Shown here piece after piece: positions 18,621-24,473 of a DNA stretch of 64,000 bases. Both the position numbers and the translations under genes were made by a program. Numbering within the stretch: position 1 is the first letter of the stretch; every line of letters begins with the position of its first letter. The notes below the pieces were generated by a model. The model was not told the DNA's origin. It worked only from the letters and a program-made list of their open reading frames with translations, and did no database searches. The stretch is from Schlesneria sp. (GTDB lineage Bacteria; Planctomycetota; Planctomycetia; Planctomycetales; Planctomycetaceae), in assembly GCA_028291515.1 (NCBI GenBank), contig JAQGHU010000046.1, positions 1 through 64,000 of the forward strand, read 5' to 3'.

Positions 18621-18702
18621 CGTTCGAAAGTTGACGTGAAGAAGATGTGACACGCTTCGCGATGGCCAGGGTCGACAGCGATCCTTGCGAAATTTTATTA
18701 AA

Positions 18703-18742
18703 AGCGAAAATGCCCCGGCGATAAGTCGGGGCATTTTCGTTT
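18703..18742 (+). terminator. Rho-independent terminator after ileS
   Basis: CGAAAATGCCCC (18705-18716) pairs perfectly with GGGGCATTTTCG (18728-18739); inner bases extend the stem towards a GATAA loop. Runs of A before and T after make it likely to work in both directions. Confidence 0.85.
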
Positions 18743-18801
18743 CATGTATGGGGAGAAATCGCATCGAGCCTTGCGGCCGGGACTCAACATCAGGAGCGAT
18801 C

Positions 18802-19857
18802 ATGAATCGTCTTCGGAACAAATCAAATCGCCGAGGAATTACTCGAGTTGAGGTGATCGTCGCTCTCGTTGCCTGCCTGCTCTTGGCAATGCTGTTTGCT
18901 CCATCTGTACCTTATCAACGCCGCAGGGCGAGCGGGTTATACTGTTTGAATAACATGCGACAAGTCAGCCTGGCCCTTCAGAATTTTGCTTCCGGCAATG
19001 GCGGGCAACTCCCGGCACTGACTAGTTCATTGAAGATGGGTTCGTCGCCCGAGCAGGTGGGGCCTACGATTGGCTGGCCGATTGCATTGCTACCGGCCCT
19101 CGACAATGGAGCGTTGTTCAAACAGATCAGGCAAAACGTCGTTGTCGAATCGGGTCGGACTCGAATTGGTGATGCAGAACGGGTTGTCGTGGTGCAAACC
19201 TATACTTGCCCACAGGATCTCAATTCTCATAAGAAACCCGGGAAATTGAGCTACGTCGTTAATATTGGATTCATTTCGCAAGGGCTCTATCACGGCGACC
19301 CTGATGGCAAGCATGTCCTTGGATTGCTGGCATGGAGCGGAACGCCTGGAGACGCTAATGCAAAGGCCATTCAAGCCGCGACGGGAGTGATGTGGAACTC
19401 CGATTCGATCGTGGGGAGTTCGCTCGACTATGTTTCGGCAGGAGACGGGGCAACGTCCACGTTGCTCGTTACGGAAAATCTTCAGGCCGGTGATTGGCAC
19501 GACACCGATAGCGCACGGATTGGGTTCGGCTTCCCCGTGACCAACATCGACGGGTTGGTACCGCTGGGAAAGGGTGAGGTTTTTGAGTCGGTTGAGAAGC
19601 CACTCAATACGCAGTTCGAAGGCGGCACTTTAGCAACGAACAAGTCGCAGAATTGGCGTATTAACCACGACTTGAAGGCAAAGGTCGGAACGTTGCCTCG
19701 CCCCAGCTCGAATCATCCAGGCGGGGTCAATGTCATGATGTGCGATGGGTCTGGAAGATCCTTGAGTGACAAAATCGACCCGCATGTCTATTTGAAGTTG
19801 CTGACACCGAATGGGGCGACTTACGGCGAAGGTGAACTCCGGCAATCAGACTACTAA
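18802..19857 (+). CDS. DUF1559-like prepilin protein, tandem copy A
   Basis: 351-aa protein of the DUF1559 group, but with an altered pilin-like N-terminus. RRGITRVEVIVALVACLLLAM keeps a basic stretch, Gly, a Glu five residues later and a hydrophobic helix, where classical members have [33 protein letters not shown] replaces the usual [15 protein letters not shown]. The C-terminus retains H-x9-DG (NHPGGVNVMMCDGSGR). Function unknown. ATG at 18802 has AGGAG five bases upstream; the open frame from 18685 runs through the ileS terminator and is not used. Copy B follows after 16 bp. Confidence 0.82.
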   Translation: MNRLRNKSNRRGITRVEVIVALVACLLLAMLFAPSVPYQRRRASGLYCLNNMRQVSLALQNFASGNGGQLPALTSSLKMGSSPEQVGPTIGWPIALLPALDNGALFKQIRQNVVVESGRTRIGDAERVVVVQTYTCPQDLNSHKKPGKLSYVVNIGFISQGLYHGDPDGKHVLGLLAWSGTPGDANAKAIQAATGVMWNSDSIVGSSLDYVSAGDGATSTLLVTENLQAGDWHDTDSARIGFGFPVTNIDGLVPLGKGEVFESVEKPLNTQFEGGTLATNKSQNWRINHDLKAKVGTLPRPSSNHPGGVNVMMCDGSGRSLSDKIDPHVYLKLLTPNGATYGEGELRQSDY

Positions 19858-19873
19858 CAAGTGGGGAGTGATC

Positions 19874-20932
19874 ATGAATCGTTGCAGTCGAAACAATTCG
19901 AATCGCCGTGGGATCACTCGTGTCGATGTGATCGTTGTTTTGGGACTAGGCCTGCTGCTCTTCCTGCTATTTGCGCCGGCCGTTCGGAGCGCCCGGAGGC
20001 CCGCGCGAAAGTTACAGTGCTTGAATAATATGCGCAATGTTGCTTTGGCAATGCAGAACTATGCTTCGTCGCAGAGTGGAAAACTACCGTTCCTGAGTTC
20101 AGTGAAGGCCATTAAGAATTCAGCGGAGGAGGAGGGTGATTTCATCGAAGGCTGGCCCGTGACGCTGTTACCGGCCTTAGATTCGACCACGCTTCTGAAA
20201 GCGATTAGAAAAAACGCTGTCATCAAGTCTGGCCAAGCAACTATCGGTGACGGGGAGCGGGTCTGGTTGGATGTCTTCACTTGTCCGGAAGATGGCGATT
20301 CTCATCGGAATTCGGGTGGCCTTAGTTACGTGGTGAATTCCGGGTTCATTTCGCGATCGCTTTATCATGGCGACCCCGATCGAAAGCATATCCCGGGGTC
20401 TCTAGCTTGGATTGGCGAGCCCGGTGATGACCAGGCGATTGCGGTGCATGTCTCGACGGGCGTGTTCTGGCAGCAGAATGAGGCCTTCGGGCCCTCTCTG
20501 GAATATATCTCCACCGGCGATGGATCCTCCACGACGTTGATGGTGACTGAGAACCTCCAAGCCGGCAATTGGTACGATACTGATACCGCGAAAATAAGCT
20601 TTGGGTTCCCTGTCGAGAACTCCAATGGCAAAGTTCCGTTGGGGGTGGGGCAGACCTTTGAATCAGAAGAGAGGCCCCTCAATACCGAATTCAAAGAGGG
20701 GACGCTGATGACCGCTAAGGGGCAGGACTGGCGAGTGAATGCGGGCTTGAAAGCACAACCCGGCACGTTGCCTCGCCCGAGTTCAAATCATGCGGGTGGC
20801 GTCAATGTCATCATGTGTGATGGGTCAGGAAGGTTCCTCAACCAGAACATTGACCCGTTTGTCTATCTGAAGTTACTCACGGCAAATGGAATTCCGTATG
20901 GCGAAGGCGAACTTCAACAGAGTTCGTACTAG
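19874..20932 (+). CDS. DUF1559-like prepilin protein, tandem copy B
   Basis: 352-aa close paralogue of the preceding gene, similar over its full length, including the N-terminus RRGITRVDVIVVLGLGLLLF, LQCLNNMRNVALAMQNYAS, LSYVVNSGFISRSLYHGDPD and NHAGGVNVIMCDGSGR. It clearly arose by tandem duplication. ATG at 19874 is preceded by GGGGAG; the gap of 16 bp to copy A implies one transcript. Copies A and B differ most in the segment after the hydrophobic helix and in the middle. No lipoprotein partner follows, unlike the two classical DUF1559 cassettes in this window. Confidence 0.82.
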   Translation: MNRCSRNNSNRRGITRVDVIVVLGLGLLLFLLFAPAVRSARRPARKLQCLNNMRNVALAMQNYASSQSGKLPFLSSVKAIKNSAEEEGDFIEGWPVTLLPALDSTTLLKAIRKNAVIKSGQATIGDGERVWLDVFTCPEDGDSHRNSGGLSYVVNSGFISRSLYHGDPDRKHIPGSLAWIGEPGDDQAIAVHVSTGVFWQQNEAFGPSLEYISTGDGSSTTLMVTENLQAGNWYDTDTAKISFGFPVENSNGKVPLGVGQTFESEERPLNTEFKEGTLMTAKGQDWRVNAGLKAQPGTLPRPSSNHAGGVNVIMCDGSGRFLNQNIDPFVYLKLLTANGIPYGEGELQQSSY

Positions 20933-20957: not shown

Positions 20958-21031
20958 TCCAAATCTGTGTCCATCTGCGAAATCTGCGGACCAAAAACCT
21001 TTGATCCGCAGATTGAATAGATTTCGCAGAT
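20958..21031 (+). repeat. Dispersed CTGCGAAATCTGCGGACC repeat, copy 2, with inverted arm
   Basis: 20958-20992 matches the element at 14811-14842. Here it is followed by an inverted partner: AATCTGCGGA (20981-20990) pairs with TCCGCAGATT (21005-21014), and ATCTGCGA (20973-20980) with TCGCAGAT (21024-21031). It lies between two convergent genes and could also act as a terminator. Confidence 0.6.
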
Positions 21032-21052
21032 AGTTCGCGTTGACGATCTCGC

Positions 21053-21817
21053 TTATTTAGGCGTTGGGGTCGAATCGGCTTTGGGCTTCGATGGGATCGG
21101 CGTTGGTTGAGCGTCCAATGTCGTTCCCGGGGTCGGTGGTTGAGGGACTGGATCACTATCCGCTGGAGCCAGCGTTGGTGACGTGGCCGTTGCGGGGCTG
21201 GTGATCTGTGCGTCTTCCTGCAGGTAGCTGAGAGCTACTTTCAGGGCAGCGAATTCGCGTTCCAAAGATCGCTTGCTGCCATGTGAATTGGGATGGACTC
21301 GCAGACGTTGCAGGGGACTGGCTTCTTCTTCGACGACGACATCGCCGCCACCGACTCGCAGGCCAACGAAGGGAATGTCGACGCCGACGCCAGGTCGGAC
21401 GACTGTACGGGGTTCTCCCCCAGTCGTGGTCGCAAGCTGTGAACGATCACCGGGGCCCCATTGGGCGACAAATTTTTGCAAGTCGGCAAACGCCTGGTTC
21501 ATGTCAGCGGCGCGTTGAGCCAAGGCTGCAGTTTCGACGGGGCCGGTGGCCAATGCGGCTCGCAACTCAACGGCTTGCGACCAGATGGCTTTCGCTCCCT
21601 TATAGGCTTCCGCATATCCGGGCTGCTGCTGGTGATAGCGATACATTTCCCAGCACAGCGAATTGCTCGTTGTGACGACCTCCTTCAGAAGCTGATCCAT
21701 CTGAACCGCATCGTCGACGATATCGACCGCGAATGCAGGTTTGTGTGCCCCTGCGGCGAATAAGCCTGCCATTCCCAGAACCAATGTGATCGCTGTTTTA
21801 CCAATTCGGCTTGTCAT
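21053..21817 (-). CDS. Secreted protein of unknown function
   Basis: 254-aa exported protein I do not recognise. A Sec-type signal peptide (about 1-30, ending AHKPAFAVD) is followed by a helical region with conserved-looking SLCWEMYRYHQQQPGY and AALAQRAADMNQAFADLQKFVAQWG. A middle part, PGVGVDIPFVGLRVGGGDVVV, then a helical segment and a Pro/Thr-rich tail follow. The helical part may form a coiled coil. ATG 21817 is preceded by AGGAGAAAG; the longer open frame to 22078 has no such support. It stands alone; upstream lies a 0.9-kb gene-free region with repeated motifs. Confidence 0.7.
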   Translation of the reverse strand: MTSRIGKTAITLVLGMAGLFAAGAHKPAFAVDIVDDAVQMDQLLKEVVTTSNSLCWEMYRYHQQQPGYAEAYKGAKAIWSQAVELRAALATGPVETAALAQRAADMNQAFADLQKFVAQWGPGDRSQLATTTGGEPRTVVRPGVGVDIPFVGLRVGGGDVVVEEEASPLQRLRVHPNSHGSKRSLEREFAALKVALSYLQEDAQITSPATATSPTLAPADSDPVPQPPTPGTTLDAQPTPIPSKPKADSTPTPK

Positions 21818-22208
21818 GATCTTTCTCCTGCATCGAAGTCGCACAGACTGCATGCTGAACGAGCGCTTCCACTTAGAATGGGATCGACAAGTGACACTTT
21901 CATGGCACTCGGTCCCTAAGCGGGTTGTGAACGGAGAAGATGCATTTGGCGCGCCGCCATTACGTTGTTGGCTGTTTCCTACACCGGTAAGGCACGAACA
22001 ACTCAAAGTCACCACTATCGCCATCCAAAGTCGGTAACGATTCTCAGTCCTCGCTCTGAAAAGGCCGAAAAAGCGCAATAGACTAGCTCAGGTCAGACCG
22101 GAGAGGCGAAGCCTTTATCGCGTGCTGTTGGGTGAACTGCCCGCTCGCAAAGCATCTGTCAGTAAACACGCACTTTTTTGAGGAAAAATGAGATTTTAGG
22201 GCCTGTTT

Positions 22209-22252
22209 TGTCCTAATTTGTCAAAATCTGTCCTGGGGTGTCACAAACTGTC
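22209..22252 (+). promoter_or_regulatory. Helically phased TGTC array
   Basis: TGTC occurs at 22209, 22219, 22229, 22239 and 22249, exactly one per 10 bp, with otherwise different spacers. Such phasing puts all units on one face of the helix and suggests cooperative binding by an unknown regulator. Confidence 0.5.
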
Positions 22253-22403
22253 AGTCCTTGCCAGGACCATCCACCGGCGAGGGACGGCGTCGCGGGTGTC
22301 CATATCCGAAAAGATGCCGAAAAAGTCGAAATGGGGGCTAGATCGAGTCGCTCGAGATCGGGGATAATGGAACTGTCGAAATGAGACTAAGTGGACCGTA
22401 ACA

Positions 22404-22459
22404 AACGGCCACACCTGTTGATCGCTGACCGGCGATCGGCACGTGTGGCCGTTTTTTTG
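22404..22459 (+). terminator. Strong intrinsic terminator with no gene in front
   Basis: AACGGCCACAC (22404-22414) pairs with GTGTGGCCGTT (22443-22453), enclosing a second stem GATCGC/GCGATC (22420-22425 with 22432-22437), and runs into seven Ts. The T tract shows it serves a + strand transcript, yet no + strand gene lies upstream. It could also stop leftward transcription from the symporter genes. Confidence 0.75.
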
Positions 22460-22476
22460 TGATGACTTCTAATGTG

Positions 22477-22571
22477 GGATGGGCTTTCAGCCCGTCACTT
22501 CTTCGATAGGAGGATCAGTTCGCGATGGCAAATATTCACCAAGGCAAATGCGACGGGCTGGAAGCCCACCC
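22477..22571. repeat. Inverted repeat built from two small palindromes
   Basis: The arm at 22477-22496 (ggatgggctttcagcccgtc) and the arm at 22552-22571 are complementary at 18 of 20 positions, and each arm is itself a hairpin (GGGCT..AGCCC). The layout resembles REP/BIME-type intergenic elements. Confidence 0.6.
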
Positions 22572-22601
22572 GACGAAGAAACGGCAGACACCCTCAAAAC
22601 C

Positions 22602-22627
22602 CTGCCATGGACTGACAAACACTGCCA
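22602..22627 (-). promoter_or_regulatory. Second 10-bp-phased array (TGKCAG on minus strand)
   Basis: CTGCCA, CTGACA and CTGCCA start at 22602, 22612 and 22622. Read on the minus strand these are TGGCAG, TGTCAG, TGGCAG. The segment 22601-22617 is an inverted near-copy (15 of 17) of 22249-22265 at the end of the first array. Confidence 0.4.
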
Positions 22628-22721
22628 TTTCGTAATGTAACGACGATGTGGTCGACTCGATCGTCGTCACAGCAGATGACTGCTCTTTGACAATTTGATG
22701 CAATTGTTGAGGCCTTCACCC

Positions 22722-24473
22722 TCAGGCATTCCCGCGCTTGGGCTGCGTGAGCAGCGATACGAGTATCAGGGTCAGGAAGCCGAGCGGGATCGTGACCAGT
22801 CCGGGCTGGCTGAAGGGGACCATGGCTGCTTTCGCGGCGGCGTCGGCGCTGAAGCCGTACACTTTTTGGAAGGTGTCTTCACTGACCAGGATCCATGCCA
22901 GGGAGCTGAACAGGCCGACCATGATCGCTGAGGAGATTCCTTGCTTGGTGGTCCGTTTCCAGAAGAGCAGCATCACCAGGGCAGGCAAGTTCGCCGATGC
23001 TGCTACGCTGAAGGCCCAGCCGACCAGAAAACCTGCGTTCATCCCCTTGAAGAGAATTCCCAGCCCGATGGCGATCGCGCCGACCACAACCGCAGCCAGT
23101 TTTCCGATGCGGACCTTTTCGTGATCATTCATTTCCCAACGGAGAACACTGGACAGCAAGTCATGCACGACTGCACCACTGGCGGCGACGATCAAGCCGC
23201 TGACTGTCCCCAGAACCGTCGTGAACGCGATCGCGGAAATGACGGCGAACAGCAGATCGCCAAAACTCTTCGCGAGCAGCGGAGCCGACATGTTGTCATT
23301 CGTCAGATCGATACTGCCGCTGGTCATGGCACCCAGTCCCATGAACAACGTCAGCACGTAGAAGCAGCCAATCGTACCAATGCCGACGACTGTGCTGAGT
23401 CGTGCAGAAGCTTGATCTTTCACCGTGTAGTAGCGGATCAAGATGTGAGGCAGCGACGCCGTGCCGCAGAACAACGCCAGCATGAGCGAGATGAAGTTTA
23501 GGCGCGGCATCAGACTGTCGGACTGCAGTCCCTTGAAAGTGGGGCTGTTTCCGGGTCGAAGCACTTTGGCTCCGGATGTCGGGGTCGGAGTCCACGTCGT
23601 GGTCTTTTCGCCGTTAGAAGTGGATTCCTTCTTGGACCAGAGGACCACTTCACTTTGCTGCAGCGTCGACAAGTATTCGATCGGACCCAGGGGGCCCGTT
23701 TCTGTTTTGCCGCCCGGTAACTTGCTGAGATGCCCCACAGGTCGCAGATCCGCCTGGCCCTCTTTCTTGCCATAGGGCAAACCATTCACAAGCTTCGAGC
23801 CGTCCGCTTTGGTCACCATCGTCTGTGGTGAATTGGCAAACTCGCTGTTATCGACCTTCAGTCCGCGATTCAGAATCAGCACGGTCAGGATGCCGCTGAA
23901 CAGAACCAGTAACGCTCCCTTGATGAACTGCACATACGTGGTACTGACCATGCCAGCGGTCGCAACAATCAGCACGACGATGACGCCGACGAGGACCACT
24001 CCCTGCCAGTATTCAAATCCGAGCAACGGCTGAATCAACGCCCCGGCTCCGACCATTTGCGGGATCAGATAGAACACGCTGACGACCAGCGTGCTGATCC
24101 CTGCTGAAAGTGTGATCGCTCGCGATTGAAACTGGCTGTTGAGGGCATCGGCGAAGGTGTACTTGCCAAGTCGCTTCAGTGGTTCGGCGACAACGAACAA
24201 GGCGACGACCCAGCCAGCCAGAAAACCGATCGAATACAAAAAGCCGTCATATCCATAGAAGGCAATCATTCCGCAGATGCCGAGGAACGATGCAGCCGAA
24301 AGATAATCGCCGGCGAAAGCGACACCGTTTACGAACCAGTGGATCTGGCCTCCGGCCGCAAAGTACCCCGCCGCCGATTTTGATTTTCGCGCGAAGAAGA
24401 AGCTCAGTCCAAGCGTGATGGCGACGAAAACCGCAAAGACAACGACGGACAGCAGTGAGCGCTCGTGAATCAT
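22722..24473 (-). CDS. Sodium:solute symporter, acetate permease (ActP)-like
   Basis: 583-aa inner-membrane transporter of the sodium:solute symporter family with about 13 predicted membrane helices. Family-typical segments are visible: FAGDYLSAASFLGICGMIAFYGYDG near 55-80, TASLPHILIRYYTVKD near 340, and the late helices WAFSVAASANLPALVMLLFWKR. The substrate is probably acetate or another short monocarboxylate, judged from ActP-like motifs and the DUF485 partner. An extended hydrophilic stretch of roughly 100 residues (about 215-320) between two helices is longer than in E. coli ActP. ATG 24473 is chosen over an in-frame TTG at 24482; neither has a strong binding site. It lies 57 bp behind the DUF485 gene, one operon. 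Confidence 0.85.
   Translation of the reverse strand: MIHERSLLSVVVFAVFVAITLGLSFFFARKSKSAAGYFAAGGQIHWFVNGVAFAGDYLSAASFLGICGMIAFYGYDGFLYSIGFLAGWVVALFVVAEPLKRLGKYTFADALNSQFQSRAITLSAGISTLVVSVFYLIPQMVGAGALIQPLLGFEYWQGVVLVGVIVVLIVATAGMVSTTYVQFIKGALLVLFSGILTVLILNRGLKVDNSEFANSPQTMVTKADGSKLVNGLPYGKKEGQADLRPVGHLSKLPGGKTETGPLGPIEYLSTLQQSEVVLWSKKESTSNGEKTTTWTPTPTSGAKVLRPGNSPTFKGLQSDSLMPRLNFISLMLALFCGTASLPHILIRYYTVKDQASARLSTVVGIGTIGCFYVLTLFMGLGAMTSGSIDLTNDNMSAPLLAKSFGDLLFAVISAIAFTTVLGTVSGLIVAASGAVVHDLLSSVLRWEMNDHEKVRIGKLAAVVVGAIAIGLGILFKGMNAGFLVGWAFSVAASANLPALVMLLFWKRTTKQGISSAIMVGLFSSLAWILVSEDTFQKVYGFSADAAAKAAMVPFSQPGLVTIPLGFLTLILVSLLTQPKRGNA

Follow-up and report, generated by a model that had tools for sequence, protein, structure and literature searches.

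Five TGTC words at exactly 10-bp spacing, located between a symporter gene and a secreted-protein gene, raise the question of what such an array does and whether it serves either of its neighbors. In the 64-kb stretch of Schlesneria sp. DNA that was analyzed in its whole length (here called the window), the words start at positions 22209, 22219, 22229, 22239 and 22249, and a first-pass annotation that had reported them with this spacing was correct in its coordinates. It was also right in taking the spacing to exceed chance, with three successive TGTC at 10 bp being confined in the window to the one place at 22209–22252, and found in none of 100 dinucleotide shuffles. An extra TGTC at 22157–22160 is out of register with the array. 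As a separate observation, two adjoining DUF1559 genes at 18685–20932 (+) of the window look like a duplication.

Anatomy and distribution of a dispersed element

A search of the window genome (8.59 Mb, 119 contigs) for four successive TGTC at 10 bp gave overlapping matches, 45 on the forward and 42 on the reverse strand, with none on either for the reversed-word control, and these 87 were merged by hand into 45 sites. Three successive words gave 142 matches, against one in the control. Frequent occurrence at random positions was what the first-pass annotation had held would speak against a binding site; the arrays are indeed frequent elsewhere in the genome, but as a conserved dispersed element and not at random positions, and copies at different sites adjoin different genes. 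The right end of this element was found at 53 places at up to two mismatches (49 with a longer pattern) and its 5′ hairpin at 53 places in the window genome. The repetition and the anatomy of the dispersed element we regard as practically certain, and its features in the window copy are as follows.

22157–22635 (+): element core of a class A copy, about 479 bp, conserved across copies
22157–22160 (+): boundary TGTC, with ATC before it in many copies
22170–22187 (+): conserved block GCACTTTTTTGAGGAAAA
22209–22252 (+): left array, with five TGTC words spaced exactly 10 bp apart
22339–22368 (+): promoter-like pair TAGATC, 18 bp, GATAAT, its position kept across copies
22391–22412 (+): 5′ hairpin GTGGACCGTAACAAACGGCCAC
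22403–22458 (+): terminator hairpin with T run, its 5′ arm doubling as the 3′ arm of the hairpin at 22391–22412
22602–22635 (−): right end CTGCCATGGACTGACAAACACTGCCATTTCGTAA

A typical copy runs from the left array over a sigma70-like promoter and a 5′ hairpin overlapping the terminator to a right end with an inverted, 10-bp-phased TGGC/TGTC/TGGC array, which in the window lies on the minus strand at 22627–22604. The spacers of the left array have the usual form, over the element copies, of TGTCCCCCAT TGTCAAAAxx TGTCCTGGGG TGTCAAAAxx TGTC; the bases between the words had been described as unrelated, which holds inside the window copy and not between copies, these spacers being largely common to other copies of the element. 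The −10 block, GATAAT at 22363–22368, lies 108 bp past the array end as measured to the block start used by our script. A generic consensus scan of 22150–22650 for promoters and terminators listed neither, and both were called because of their conservation across copies and because of folding. Pairwise similarity between copies mostly starts 52–58 bp upstream of the array. Since the pairwise limits differ by subfamily, with additional sequence shared within subfamilies on both sides and flanks that are partly shuffled, we claim the common core alone. Words resembling GGTTGTGTCATGCG recur, at times several of them, just past class A right ends (e.g. L035, L041, L052 and L061).

The copies fall into two classes. 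Class A, which includes the window copy, has a short terminated RNA with no gene behind the terminator, and shows neither outer repeats nor a duplication, whereas class B has a longer leader (CCTCTGGGCCGCTCTCTTAGCGGAAGATCAGAGG) followed by what, by eye, appear to be the first codons of a 124-aa gene, and has outer inverted repeats GTGCAGTCGTT..TGGTGG. These outer repeats were seen at L018, L016, L027, L032, L063 and L081, with other class B copies being without the left part; L018 is flanked left and right by AATGAAG, which may be a target-site duplication. One 1.5-kb copy, L022, carries the whole 124-aa gene (L022:4416–4790) together with an overlapping 127-aa open reading frame, and these genes occur in a single copy per species, neither being a transposase. 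Mechanical open reading frames of at least 150 aa are overlapped by 12 of 41 copies, a count given no weight as such frames are often spurious. No autonomous or transposase-bearing copy was found in loci having the right end only, in contig-edge copies or by searching for the outer inverted repeats, in assemblies that break at copies. Many contigs start or end in or near copies (C17, C18, C30, C39, C64, C71 and C113 of the window genome, G000, and C17, C21 and C41 of the sister species, G012). With the assemblies broken in this way, copy numbers are therefore lower bounds. Contigs C38 and C58 were considered as having a gene beside a right end and were rejected, as they carry a second, unrelated inverted-repeat family. 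This second dispersed family has the inverted repeat TGCCACTGGTTGGCCGCTTCGGACAACCAGTGC, with arms about 110–170 bp apart (L101, L102, L113, L078:1–100 and L079:1–100).

The RNA at 22391–22462 of the window folds at −38.9 kcal/mol (z −6.2), and the possible small RNA annotated as ending at 22459 is present as a structure, the T run of which ends at 22458. Its hairpin has the consensus GTGN-A-CCGT-AACMA-ACGG-NCAC. The fourth pair was G-C in 45, T-A in 15, C-G in 10, T-G in 1 and C-A in 1 of 72 copies (13 distinct forms), a covariation that largely follows the classes and thus represents few events. Since the 3′ arm of the hairpin is in class A the 5′ arm of the terminator, the two structures would be mutually exclusive, as in an attenuator. 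Rfam covariance models matched nothing at an E of 1 or below in window positions 21000–23500, and when run on seven other loci gave two plant-microRNA rows alone, with scores well short of the gathering thresholds. Units with the same hairpin and another terminator stem, all without the array, were found at L526:1191–1212 and L527:1183–1204 (both species), at L528:1201–1222 in a third genome of the genus (G013) and at L530:598–619. In G013 the hairpin unit is present and the element, by its array and right-end patterns, is absent. The existence of such array-less units implies that the RNA module either predates the array or can exist apart from it; the array-less hairpin with its competing terminator may itself be an unnamed attenuator-type RNA.

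Among 15 genomes of the genus, the array pattern was found in two, those of the window and of the sister species G012, as was the right end, and the hairpin was found in three, the third (G013) by one match with two mismatches. The sister species has about 50 copies. The expectation that relatives would keep the array in phase held for the one sister species having it and failed for the other 13 congeners searched, from which it is absent. Four TGTC at 10 bp occurred in 24 of 397 genomes of the class, and the spacers of the element were in none of the matches listed in that search other than those of the window genome and G012. An exact 21-base pattern gave 28 stretches in the GTDB collection, which possibly does not include records of the window's own genome, and all of them came from uncultured Schlesneria sp. 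(Umea_bin-10000). A literature search among open-licence papers found no description of the element or of these arrays.

Comparing the flanks of 53 of the genome's own elements with those of 35 in G012, we found at least seven sites shared by both sides and at least 21 by one side or more, which are lower bounds as part of the G012 copies was compared; at sites common to both species the flanks are roughly 90% identical. Among eight flank pairs for which the genus was searched, the element was common to both species at two (L033 and L051) and missing from G012 at two others (L038, and L036 with less clear flanks), while the remaining four were not scored, among them the window copy, where the G012 contig starts. 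At L038 the site spans 77 bp in G012 versus 699 bp in the window genome; it is not a clean empty site, the 77 bases being unrelated and without a duplication. Orthologous sites thereby differ in presence and absence of the element, as is typical of mobile elements. The element probably spread in the lineage behind two Schlesneria-like species, with its binding, transcription and mobility all being predictions.

Constraint on the array and its distance to the promoter

Since selection of copies by TGTC would have made a conservation count circular, copies were picked through their right end together with a landmark further upstream. The landmark was present at 47 of the 51 right ends read (three of the other four lie at contig edges, the fourth being L082), and exclusion of L083, the array of which is too short to place, left 46 copies. 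Within these same copies, departures from the consensus amounted to 18 of 920 cells in TGTC columns versus 178 of 1104 in spacers, i.e. spacers varied about eight times more often. Of the 18 departures, 14 came from copies that had lost whole units (L036, L049, L051 and L060), the remaining four all being TGTC to CGTC. Arrays have three to six words, and gains and losses come in whole 10-bp units. The array thus has what characterizes a phased operator, a recognition word conserved over its spacers and an exact helical spacing.

The distance between the array and the promoter also varied in steps. In class B, the array end lies 65 bp from the −10 block in 26 of 27 copies, and for 47 other copies we found distances of 61, 64–66, 75, 84, 96–97, 106–108 and 116–118 bp, with four long ones of 215–366 bp; a recognized −10 block was missing in 2 of 76 copies. 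The whole range is 61–366 bp, in steps of about 10 bp. In a reduced set of 20 copies whose spacers are dissimilar, the Rayleigh resultant was 0.64 at periods of both 10 and 10.5 bp, compared to 0.26 at 9.5 and 0.36 at 11.5 bp. A set listed by hand, from which the first differs by one copy, gave 0.67 at 10 and 0.66 at 10.5 bp, 10.1 bp being the best of the periods from 6 to 20 bp, and with a jitter of up to 8 bp as null the observed maximum was reached in 0.06% of 20,000 trials. Other distances in the hand-listed set gave 0.36 at 10, 0.23 at 10.5 and 0.52 at 9.5 bp (array to right array), 0.50 at 10 and 0.23 at 10.5 bp (−10 to right array), and 0.30 at 10 and 0.50 at 10.5 bp (array to hairpin). 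When the 41 class A copies that have a right end were taken without reduction, two control distances had resultants of 0.50 and 0.62 at 10 bp, so relatedness alone produces some register. The test is exploratory, as the steps were noticed before testing and the copies share ancestry. Within that exploratory scope, the array keeps a fixed face relative to the promoter, a register as expected if an array-bound protein must face the polymerase.

We conclude that the array is probably a phased regulatory site for the element's own promoter. The multimeric regulator proposed in the first-pass annotation is accordingly retained with regards to the kept TGTC words, the drifting spacers and the exploratory promoter register, and given up as the binder of an isolated operator of a neighboring gene.

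A small HTH protein as candidate binder

The gene-bearing copy L022 is orthologous in the sister species. Its 124-aa helix-turn-helix (HTH) protein is 96% identical to the sister orthologue, with a dN of 0.018 versus a dS of 0.16, and the protein is therefore under selection. It matched small terminases weakly, with an E of 1.9e-7 for phrog_2538 (PHROG) and of 0.0012 for Pfam Sf6_terminase (19.3 bits, under the cut-off of 27). Against PDB sequences it had no significant match, and the second open reading frame of L022 (127 aa) had no match in Pfam. A single-sequence model of the sister orthologue (pLDDT 87.4) displayed the HTH followed by two long helices. The fold search with this model returned generic helical pairs alone, with nothing significant or specific among them and no small-terminase row, an absence that is no argument against a small terminase (TerS). 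Within the taxonomic family, 21 of 170 genomes have a relative of the protein, three of this genus included; one weak match was found in phages and one weak, partial match in plasmids, and none was confirmed in viral contigs.

In 10 of 24 homologue loci the word TG[TGA]C stood exactly 10 bp upstream of the TG of the start codon, compared to 2 of 165 other mechanical open reading frames, the count covering loci with a usable start (L510 has none) and the controls being mechanical frames of at least 100 aa at those loci. Counted by the longest-start rule of the control, the homologues gave 7 of 15. The signal for a word at the start codon comes in part from ATGGCA starts, of which the upstream word is independent, and the L022 gene itself is without the 10-bp TGNC/start pair. 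A link between this start-site word of the homologues and the HTH protein is suggestive. That the HTH protein of the element is the binder of the array is a serious prediction, to which we would give slightly less than an even chance.

The mechanism that we favor is one where a multimeric HTH protein would occupy adjacent TGTC words along a single face of the DNA, and from there would act on RNA polymerase at the promoter that the element itself carries. That promoter would give a short RNA, which would end at the terminator as long as the overlapping 5′ hairpin does not form. The best candidate for the binder would be the product of the single gene-bearing copy (L022:4416–4790, 124 aa), which would serve every copy in trans. 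Taken together, the array is on balance best understood as the left-end array of a mostly gene-less element, and as the predicted site of an oligomeric HTH regulator on the element promoter, a combination to which we give somewhat better than an even chance.

Other readings of the array and related systems

The inverted arrays could instead be end-recognition sites, where a transposase or accessory protein from another element would act upon phased TGKC words, with the promoter and RNA carried along or left over from a parent element. We find this unlikely, albeit worth serious thought, as arrays do stand at both ends in opposite orientation, copies are dispersed and without genes, the element is missing at L038 in the sister species and class B has outer inverted repeats. 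Against these points, the searches made found no transposase-bearing copy, L038 holds 77 unrelated bases in the sister species in place of a clean empty site, the register of left array and promoter is not predicted by such a reading, and the register between the two arrays was weak in the reduced set. The element is multicopy, dispersed, short and without its own transposase, as are MITEs and other non-autonomous mobile elements. Like MITEs and REP-like repeats it is also mostly gene-less and restricted to close relatives, and unlike them it has an array of phased words at either end and a full promoter–hairpin–terminator unit, with class A showing neither transposase, duplication nor simple terminal inverted repeat in the copies compared. 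Excisionases such as Xis are small HTH proteins that oligomerize on DNA. The recombination directionality factor RdfS is, by the excerpts of its description, another such protein (PMC11963761). The element differs from the systems of these proteins, as far as the excerpts describe them, in that no recombinase or attachment site was found at it.

In the SPP1/SF6 system, the small terminase has direct repeats over the promoter and the start of a small HTH protein gene, and forms a ring with HTHs about one helical turn apart, according to excerpts of PMC4737164. An HTH protein derived from phage small terminases, acting on the array as a pac-like packaging site such that copies mark DNA for a phage or gene transfer agent, would agree with the weak PHROG and sub-threshold Pfam matches and with a TGTC array being found 121 and 170 bp upstream of a small terminase gene in two viral contigs. 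The element is nevertheless without terminase genes, large terminase included, and without capsid genes, its copies are chromosomal and dispersed, unlike the pac system as excerpted, and the HTH homology is weak. Such an array was also found at none of three phage small-terminase loci tested (L522–L524), nor at L525, where the HTH protein has its single relative among phages, and the SF6 DNA-binding domain is, in the excerpted text, little specific for repeats (PMC4737164); the fold search had no terminase row, which excludes nothing. We hold packaging to be improbable.

Improbable too, and if anything slightly more so, is a spacing that is a neutral relic, where the array seems conserved only since the element spread recently and its copies are young. 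The copies are alike and the element is known from two close species alone, but spacers have diverged some eightfold more often than TGTC columns in the same copies, at least seven sites are common to both species by both flanks with these flanks about 90% identical, and the array is in register with the promoter. That the array, lying between the two genes, is the operator of the adjoining symporter or secreted-protein gene is very hard to believe for a part of an approximately 50-copy element with the same array beside other genes at other sites, a predicted RNA that stops before the symporter gene, and congeners that have the symporter gene and no array.

A phased regulatory site at the element promoter, the reading we prefer, has its nearest parallel in the late-gene activators of the Ltr family (Alt of TP901-1, phi13 Ltr), for which several direct repeats before the promoter are needed for activation, with Alt sites at −76 to −32 and phi13 repeats of 18 bp, as given in excerpts of PMC13123087. 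Several direct repeats upstream of a promoter and a small regulator are features in common. The element differs from those operators, as excerpted, in having its array farther upstream, at a distance variable in whole helical turns, in being multicopy and in having a promoter that leads to a short RNA.

In viral contigs, TGTC and TGTCC arrays at exactly 10 bp with diverse spacers turn up often, and much more so than such arrays of the reversed word. For five TGTC, the IMG/VR viral contigs held at least 121 arrays in at least 120 loci, at least 52 of them with diverse spacers, compared to diverse spacers in 27 of 121 reversed-word arrays among the matches listed, nine of which share one spacer set. 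Four TGTCC gave at least 152 arrays, at least 89 being diverse, versus 39 arrays in 38 loci with one diverse for the CCTGT control, loci in both cases being pooled from several scans. Inverted array pairs 25–37 bp apart made up 15 of 80 among the loci listed, and those read resemble one another. Genes near the diverse viral arrays vary, including repressors, integrases, replication genes, terminases and portals. Examples of viral arrays are L188:9095–9138, L193:2164–2217, L215:10560–10603, L223:8009–8052 and L265:4070–4113, and of inverted pairs L409, L416, L419, L421, L425, L431, L440, L451, L453 and L455. As late activators bind direct repeats before a promoter, in the excerpts at hand, some viral arrays may be such sites.

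A wider reading, which we offer as a doubtful one, is that a mobile element has seeded about 50 complete units of phased operator, promoter and attenuator-like RNA under the control in trans of one terminase-descended HTH protein, the gene of which is kept in a single copy, thereby forming a small-RNA regulon, with the viral TGTC(C) arrays being the same type of site in its phage home. If true, some 50 dispersed planctomycete promoters would be switchable by one protein, and the logic of the site, with its exact helical spacing and fixed promoter face, would be legible from sequence. The element would then be a testable example of a mobile element carrying operator, promoter and attenuator together, and would provide a concrete binding-site hypothesis for the small terminase-like HTH proteins, a family with members in 21 of the 170 genomes covered.
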